Origin: Planctomycetota bacterium
GTDB taxonomy: Bacteria; Planctomycetota; JAMOSO01
Length of the DNA stretch: 34,860 nucleotides
Reading direction: 5' to 3'
Assembly: GCA_027063065.1 (NCBI GenBank)
Contig: JAMOSO010000043.1
Location: 1-34,860 of the forward strand
Shown: piece by piece, positions 1 to 1,257 of the stretch
Layout of the letters: each line of letters begins with the position of its first letter
How positions within the stretch are numbered: position 1 is the stretch's first letter
The notes under the pieces: generated by a model
Database searches by the model: none
The model's input: the letters and a program-made list of their open reading frames with translations, nothing else
What the model was told of the DNA's origin: nothing
Program-made: the position numbers and the translations under genes

Positions 1-1257
1 GTAAGCTCCGATGCAAGCTCATCAGATAATACTGTAAGTAACGAAGAAATTGATGCTTTATTAGCAGGTAATACTGCAGGGGCGTCCCAATCAGAATCTA
101 AAACAACAGTTAGTAATGACGATATAGATGCACTTTTAGCTGGCGCAGGAGGTGGTGGGACTAGCACCGATGCAAGCGCAACAGATAATACCGTTAGCAA
201 TGATGATATTGCTGCCTTATTTGCCGAAAACGCCCCATCGGATAATAATGCGTCGGCTGATTCTAACGATACTACAGTCAGTAATGATGATATGGCAGCA
301 TTGCTTGGCAGTATTGAAGGAATGACAGATACTTCTGCCGACAAAGAGCAGGTTCCACAAAAAATATTAGATTTGGTCGATAGCGCTATTGAGGTAGGTT
401 GTTCCGCTTGGCAAACTTTATTAAATAAAGATGTCAAACAAACTAGAACAAATGCAGAAATTGGCAATCCTGCGGCAAGCTTAGAAGGTAAGGATTTGAT
501 TGGCAGTACTATAGCAATCACAGGTGATATTGAAGGTACATTGTATTTGACGTATAGCAAAGCTGGCGTATCAAGAGCGATTGGTTCGATGTTGATGGAA
601 ACAGACGATGACATTGTAGCTAGAGCCGATAAAGAATTTGACGATGAAGATAAAGATGCTTTTGGCGAGGCTATTAATCAGTGGGGCGGTGCAGTCTCTC
701 AAGCTTGGCGTGATGCTTTGGGTTGTAATATAAGTTTTGGTCCATGCGAATTATCGTATGGTGCTACATTTATGCAGTTGCTTTTGCCTGGCAAGGGTGC
801 GGCAATTATTAATTTTGATTTTTCTATTGGAGATTCTGAAGAATCACCAGCTTGGATGTGTTTAGATTCTAAATTGGTGGAAGCATTAAATCCACCTGAG
901 AAAGAAGATCCAGTGGTTACAGAAGATCCTATTGTTGAGTCGGTAACTACTAATGCACTACCTAGTCAGCCAGAAGAACAATCTGATATTTTAGGTGAAA
1001 ATATTGATGCTGTTTTAAGTATTGAGGTTCCTGTAAGGGTAATAATAGCAGAAAAAAAAATGAGTATGTCTGGGGTCAGAGAAATCACAACGGGTTCTAT
1101 TATTGAATTTGATAAAAACTGTGAAGAAGTTTTAGATGTATATATTGGTAACCAGATGATGGGGCGTGGTGAGGTTATTATTCGCAGAGAACGTTTTGGA
1201 GTGCAAGTTAAAGAAGTGCTTTCTTTAGAAGAGCGCATTAGAATGTTAGGTACATAA
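1..1257 (+). CDS. fliY: FliY-like flagellar switch protein / CheY-P phosphatase, 5' end cut off
   Basis: The frame is open from base 1, so the start lies upstream; 418 codons are visible. Residues 1-104 are a low-complexity Ser/Asp/Ala-rich region with four copies of a TVSN(D/E)(D/E)I(D/A)ALL peptide. This resembles the LSQ-EIDALL peptide at the N-terminus of FliM/FliY, known to bind phosphorylated CheY. Residues about 121-298 form a CheC/CheX-like domain. It contains D219, E223, N226 and P248, an exact fit to the D/S-x3-E-x2-N-x21/22-P phosphatase motif. Residues about 336-418 are a FliN/SpoA C-ring domain ending with a typical GRGEV...FGVQVKEV stretch. This order matches FliY, a C-ring component that dephosphorylates CheY-P. 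Flagellin follows. An internal ATG at 292 is unlikely to be the start because it falls inside the fourth repeat. Confidence 0.85.
   Translation, partial: VSSDASSSDNTVSNEEIDALLAGNTAGASQSESKTTVSNDDIDALLAGAGGGGTSTDASATDNTVSNDDIAALFAENAPSDNNASADSNDTTVSNDDMAALLGSIEGMTDTSADKEQVPQKILDLVDSAIEVGCSAWQTLLNKDVKQTRTNAEIGNPAASLEGKDLIGSTIAITGDIEGTLYLTYSKAGVSRAIGSMLMETDDDIVARADKEFDDEDKDAFGEAINQWGGAVSQAWRDALGCNISFGPCELSYGATFMQLLLPGKGAAIINFDFSIGDSEESPAWMCLDSKLVEALNPPEKEDPVVTEDPIVESVTTNALPSQPEEQSDILGENIDAVLSIEVPVRVIIAEKKMSMSGVREITTGSIIEFDKNCEEVLDVYIGNQMMGRGEVIIRRERFGVQVKEVLSLEERIRMLGT
31..312 (+). repeat. Four tandem EIDALL-type peptide repeats in fliY
   Basis: Coding repeats start at 31, 106, 190 and 274, each 13 codons long, spaced 75, 84 and 84 bases apart. 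The encoded cores are TVSNEEIDALLAG, TVSNDDIDALLAG, TVSNDDIAALFAE and TVSNDDMAALLGS. The linker before copies 1 and 3 is also similar (DAS..DNTVSN), so the ancestral unit was probably about 28 residues. The array may continue upstream of the window. Confidence 0.9.

Follow-up and report, generated by a model that had tools for sequence, protein, structure and literature searches.

Tandem FliM-type peptides on a FliY-type flagellar protein: a candidate multivalent catcher of CheY-P at the motor switch

The fliY-type gene and its protein

The window, i.e., the whole stretch of 34,860 nucleotides that was analysed, is an entire contig (C43) of a genome assembled in 71 contigs (2.13 Mb, 90% complete). 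Its first open reading frame runs on the forward strand and is open at the 5' end, base 1 being in frame within the gene, and the neighbouring flagellin gene supplies a flagellar context. The features discussed here are the following.

1-1257, forward: fliY-type gene; 418 residues are present and the 5' end is lost at the contig edge; it encodes the peptide array, a CheC-like domain and a FliN C-terminal domain
4-33, forward: linker preceding copy 1, similar to the linker preceding copy 3
46-63, forward: copy 1, core EIDALL from residue 16, in the unit TVSNEEIDALL
121-138, forward: copy 2, core DIDALL from residue 41, in the unit TVSNDDIDALL
205-222, forward: copy 3, core DIAALF from residue 69, in the unit TVSNDDIAALF
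289-306, forward: copy 4, core DMAALL from residue 97, in the unit TVSNDDMAALL; modelled helix at residues 96-103
340-903, forward: CheC-like middle domain (residues 114-301), pLDDT mostly high
655-678, forward: putative CheC-type catalytic motif D219-x3-E223-x2-N226, with a proline at +22 (from the motif and the alignment to 4hyn)
1009-1221, forward: FliN/SPOA C-terminal domain PF01052 (residues 337-407, Pfam)
1319-2710, forward: flagellin gene, directly 3' of the fliY-type gene

The C-terminal domain scored 58.2 bits against PF01052 (cut-off 23.8). For the middle domain, there was a profile match to Thermotoga maritima FliY (4hyn) with an E value of 1.3e-16, the CheX Pfam model stayed slightly below its cut-off (25.5 of 27 bits) and PF04509 (CheC), searched for in the whole of this genome, returned no match; the domain is nearer to the CheX/FliY models than to CheC PF04509. 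In the structure model, which was built from ten sequences and is confident in the middle domain, the closest structure to this domain was 4hyn, T. maritima FliY (Z 21.6, rmsd 2.6 across 183 residues); FliM, CheC and CheX came next. The name FliY, proposed by the earlier note from the letters alone, is thus borne out in architecture (CheC-like plus FliN domain) and in fold. The NCBI FliY equivalog cut-offs were missed (PRK08432, 75 of 219 bits; PRK08119, 59.6 of 218) by this protein with its missing N-terminus and distant lineage, so that FliY-type is the safe name rather than that of a certified FliY equivalog. Identity with FliM was rejected on the failure of the protein to match PF02154, and membership of the HubP/FimV proteins was ruled out by the domains (an NCBIfam scan returned no FimV model) as well as by the residues preceding the core.

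The stretch D219-x3-E223-x2-N226 aligns with SAVGEAMN in T. maritima FliY, while the first CheC-type half-site appears degenerate by eye. At the level of sequence one CheC-type catalytic motif is intact, which supports the earlier suggestion that a phosphatase-type domain lies in the same chain as the array. A D-x3-E-x2-N-type motif was kept in 14 of the 28 FliY-like relatives, and with half of them lacking it the family need not be catalytic. The window protein mirrors FliY of T. maritima and Bacillus subtilis in its domain order, CheC-like fold, D/S-x3-E-x2-N site and FliN C-terminal domain, and those proteins, CheC-FliN fusions acting as the CheY-P phosphatase of the switch, carry one peptide as against at least four here. 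It also differs from FliY in that, of its two CheC-type half-sites, just one seems intact and in that its own genome encodes a separate, single-peptide FliN. With FliM it shares the succession of an EIDALL-type peptide, a CheC-like domain and an SPOA domain, but, unlike FliM, it has no PF02154 match and bears both a phosphatase-type motif and an array. It has been reported that FliY can act as a CheY-P phosphatase (PMC9126983, PMC340952).

The peptide array and the contig edge

The EIDALL peptide of FliM and FliY is the site for CheY-P (PMC9126983). The presence of at least four such copies in the window protein, claimed by the earlier note, is confirmed; the spacing of about 28 residues that it gave applies to two gaps (28 and 28) and fails for the first (25), so that the array is not uniform. 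Common to the four copies is the unit T-V-S-N-[DE]-[DE]-[IM]-[DA]-A-L-[LF]. When the first 112 residues were shuffled 200,000 times, one core appeared in 179 shuffles and two or more in none, against the four observed; the array is not due to chance. With the FliM-type consensus [LV][SD][QN]x[DE][IV]DALL, copies 1 and 2 agree, Asn replacing Gln (the window units read SN, FliM peptides SQ or DQ), and copies 3 and 4 depart from it, as Ala replaces the core Asp and Phe or Met is found in addition. Two core types are consequently present, IDALL (copies 1 and 2) and IAALF/MAALL (copies 3 and 4). In the structure model the array is disordered (pLDDT mostly below 50), apart from one short helix at copy 4.

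Pooled over the copy pairs, the 11-residue unit gave pS 0.82 and pN 0.14 (pN/pS about 0.17, with selection inferred from copies within one gene only), and synonymous sites near saturation together with so low a pN suggest that selection maintains the units and that they did not arise by recent duplication. Tandem Repeats Finder detected no array in this region, which is consistent with the divergence of the copies at the DNA level. Copies 3 and 4 are identical at 9 of the 11 unit residues in spite of differences at 8 of 33 bases, and the change from Asp to Ala is common to both; the decay that had been suggested for them is therefore not favoured, and they look like variants rather than decayed copies.

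A comparison with homologues, proposed earlier as a check, told in two directions: none of the 28 other FliY-like proteins of the phylum has the strict motif or such an array (a loose DLDxLL close to the N-terminus occurs in a few), whereas the conservation seen from copy to copy speaks against a merely low-complexity region. It might be supposed that the region is only a low-complexity linker through which the motif has spread by duplication without any function, as FliY-like relatives do without the array, the linkers are rich in Ser, Asp and Gly, and one linker pair was recently duplicated. We regard this as highly improbable, since the 11-residue unit has been kept although its synonymous sites are near saturation, and since divergence is seen in the linkers but not in the units.

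That linker pair also bears on the missing 5' end. Between the linkers that precede copies 1 and 3, 24 of 30 bases agree, as compared with 8-13 of 30 for the other linker pairs, which indicates that the array probably continues 5' of the contig edge, with at least one further unit upstream of copy 1 in the assembly gap. A search with the first 30 bases of the contig in all other contigs of the genome revealed no overlapping contig. Furthermore, PF02154 (FliM) gave zero matches in this genome at E values up to 1, and it was matched in 31 of 59 relatives. In three relatives (G017, G004 and G031) the fliY-type gene is immediately preceded by fliM, so the absence of FliM here is probably part of the same assembly gap as the missing end of the array. 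The loss of FliM was accordingly rejected as a firm claim, the contig breaking where those three relatives have fliM.

Similar arrays on other bacterial proteins

Among 392 genomes of the phylum, eight had arrays by a two-core DNA pattern, and none did by its reversed control. All eight array genomes encode FliN/FliY-type proteins, as against 224 of the 392 overall (p 0.011, kinship ignored). Apart from that of the window, the arrays lie on coiled-coil proteins (G031, G155, G240 and G293), on membrane-helix proteins with a TPR-like end (G261 and G287) and on a 481-residue protein (G017). In the two membrane proteins (L034 and L035), a FliM-like TQEEIDALF comes first, followed by GQDDIDALL units, the membrane helix and the TPR-like end. 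A search for close relatives yielded 24 pattern matches, none confirmed as a relative.

Across 85,000 species genomes, a three-core pattern recovered 45 loci. This wide scan was limited to first cores with GAT and to gaps of 50-80 bases and thus undercounts GC-rich and widely spaced arrays, so its silence on arrays in FliM, FliN and FliY elsewhere is weak evidence. Viral contigs contained no three tandem cores. Among the 44 array proteins scanned, the FimV core (LysM) was found in 29 and the FimV C-terminal model in 23; within L046-L090, mostly from Colwellia, Pseudoalteromonas, Thalassotalea and Shewanella, DIDALL cores occur in the cytoplasmic repeats of HubP/FimV. These polar landmark proteins of the Alteromonadales resemble the window protein in their tandem DIDALL units, in a spacing of roughly 16-35 residues and in an acidic disordered region, but they are membrane landmarks, have neither a CheC nor a FliN domain and do not read S[QN]x before the core.

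The recurrence of the IDALL core in acidic HubP/FimV repeats, whose known partners are polar proteins (PMC8789113), raises the thought that the units of the window protein, too, bind a partner other than CheY, as may hold for those repeats. We consider this very unlikely: before the core, HubP units mostly have DPD or ADD, whereas SN stands there in the window units; the non-HubP arrays mostly show [SGDN]Q, as do FliM and FliN peptides from the same phylum and genome.

Several of the remaining carriers have other bodies altogether. One array lies on a CheZ (L064:2-979, reverse strand; PF04344, 41.1 bits against a cut-off of 30.7) encoded on a contig from one MAG, labelled Rhodothermus, and its C-terminal tail consists of four SQ-x-EID-x-LF units. 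In E. coli CheZ the CheY-binding peptide is likewise at the C-terminus. Like the window protein, this CheZ combines the body of a CheY-P phosphatase family with tandem EIDALF peptides, and it differs in its unrelated phosphatase fold, the C-terminal position of the array and a spacing of 15-17. By analogy it would be a parallel case, in which another CheY-P phosphatase body has gained the same kind of tail. In a Desulfobacterales MAG (L088:3-1301, forward strand), six SQDDIDALL-type units are joined to a membrane helix and a FliL-like end; this is a probable FliL, with PF03748 at E 0.034, below the cut-off. A Lentisphaeraceae MAG encodes a free-standing protein of 570 residues (L051:5218-6927, reverse strand) that contains roughly a dozen DQSEIDALL units and lacks any recognised domain, and in a further locus (L063) the array is accompanied by a membrane helix and Ig-like domains.

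Such carriers give some ground for the idea that the array serves chiefly to lower free CheY-P, as a buffer or sink, and has a small role in switching, for comparable arrays in the phylum occur on coiled-coil, membrane-TPR and free-standing proteins without a motor domain, and both the phosphatase-type chain and the CheZ case fit the removal of CheY-P. The array chain of the window has, however, the SPOA domain of the C-ring and is encoded beside flagellin, which places it at the switch, and a mere sink is quite unlikely in our estimation.

Similar arrays on several unrelated bacterial proteins hint that a means of catching or buffering CheY has been overlooked. It is conceivable, and we propose it tentatively, that FliM-type CheY-binding peptides in tandem form a general, undescribed module, which catches, buffers or channels CheY-P multivalently on unrelated proteins, the carriers being FliY, CheZ, probably FliL, coiled-coil scaffolds, membrane-TPR proteins and free-standing proteins. 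A literature search on tandem EIDALL or DIDALL peptides found no description, with thin coverage of subscription papers, so that an earlier description is possible. If the arrays do bind CheY, their occurrence on unrelated proteins including CheZ would make multivalent capture a recurring solution, for which these proteins offer concrete test cases.

Proposed capture of CheY-P at the switch and candidate partners in the same genome

The best explanation of the window protein, and one that we hold to be fairly probable, is a disordered multivalent catcher of CheY-P on the motor switch, possibly feeding the phosphatase domain of the same chain. In this arrangement the usual single N-terminal CheY-catching peptide of a FliY-type C-ring protein would have been replaced by a disordered tail with four or more FliM-type peptides, each of which would become a short helix when bound to the alpha4-beta5-alpha5 face of CheY-P. 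With several copies tethered together, the local concentration of CheY-P would rise and its rebinding at the rotor would be favoured, and captured CheY-P might then be handed to the CheC-like site in the same chain, by which the signal would be cleared at the switch. Copies 3 and 4, without the Asp of IDALL, may differ in binding strength. Counted against capture are the lack of the strict motif in the FliY-like relatives, the SN in place of SQ or DQ, the missing core Asp of copies 3 and 4, and the many similar arrays on HubP/FimV, which are not established as CheY binders. Normally, one peptide per subunit governs both the CheY-P held by each switch subunit and the link between capture and dephosphorylation at the motor; a natural switch protein with at least four peptides beside a phosphatase-type domain would allow valency to be varied in one chain.

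Candidate partners are at hand in the same genome. Two single-domain receivers, canonical CheY-like proteins at C48:36820-37152 and C48:80557-80892, share 46-49% identity with E. coli CheY; of 14 positions that we take to lie around the FliM-binding face of CheY, 9 and 10 are identical in them. Within its 2.1 Mb the genome has 57 receiver-domain matches, many of them to single-domain proteins, and 11 CheW-domain matches, and thus seems well endowed with chemosensory signalling; its chemotaxis gene clusters number at least three, one of which reads cheA-cheD-cheY-cheX-cheB from the translations.

So many receivers and clusters, together with the two core types, could mean that the copies are specialised for different CheY paralogues and that the array brings the output of several chemosensory systems together at one motor. 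Nevertheless, among the receivers tested only three distinct ones are close to E. coli CheY overall, and the flanking TVSN is identical in all four units; we think specialisation of this kind unlikely.

Single peptides of the same type occur elsewhere in this genome. The separate FliN carries one canonical N-terminal peptide, LSQDEIDALLGG. Additionally, on contig C24 (L178:6542-6838, forward strand), a protein of about 99 residues begins MSDVLSQEEIDALLSG, a canonical FliM-type peptide, and a CheY-like protein (C31:6818-7159, L138; 173-residue open frame) contains DDIDAII in an N-terminal extension.
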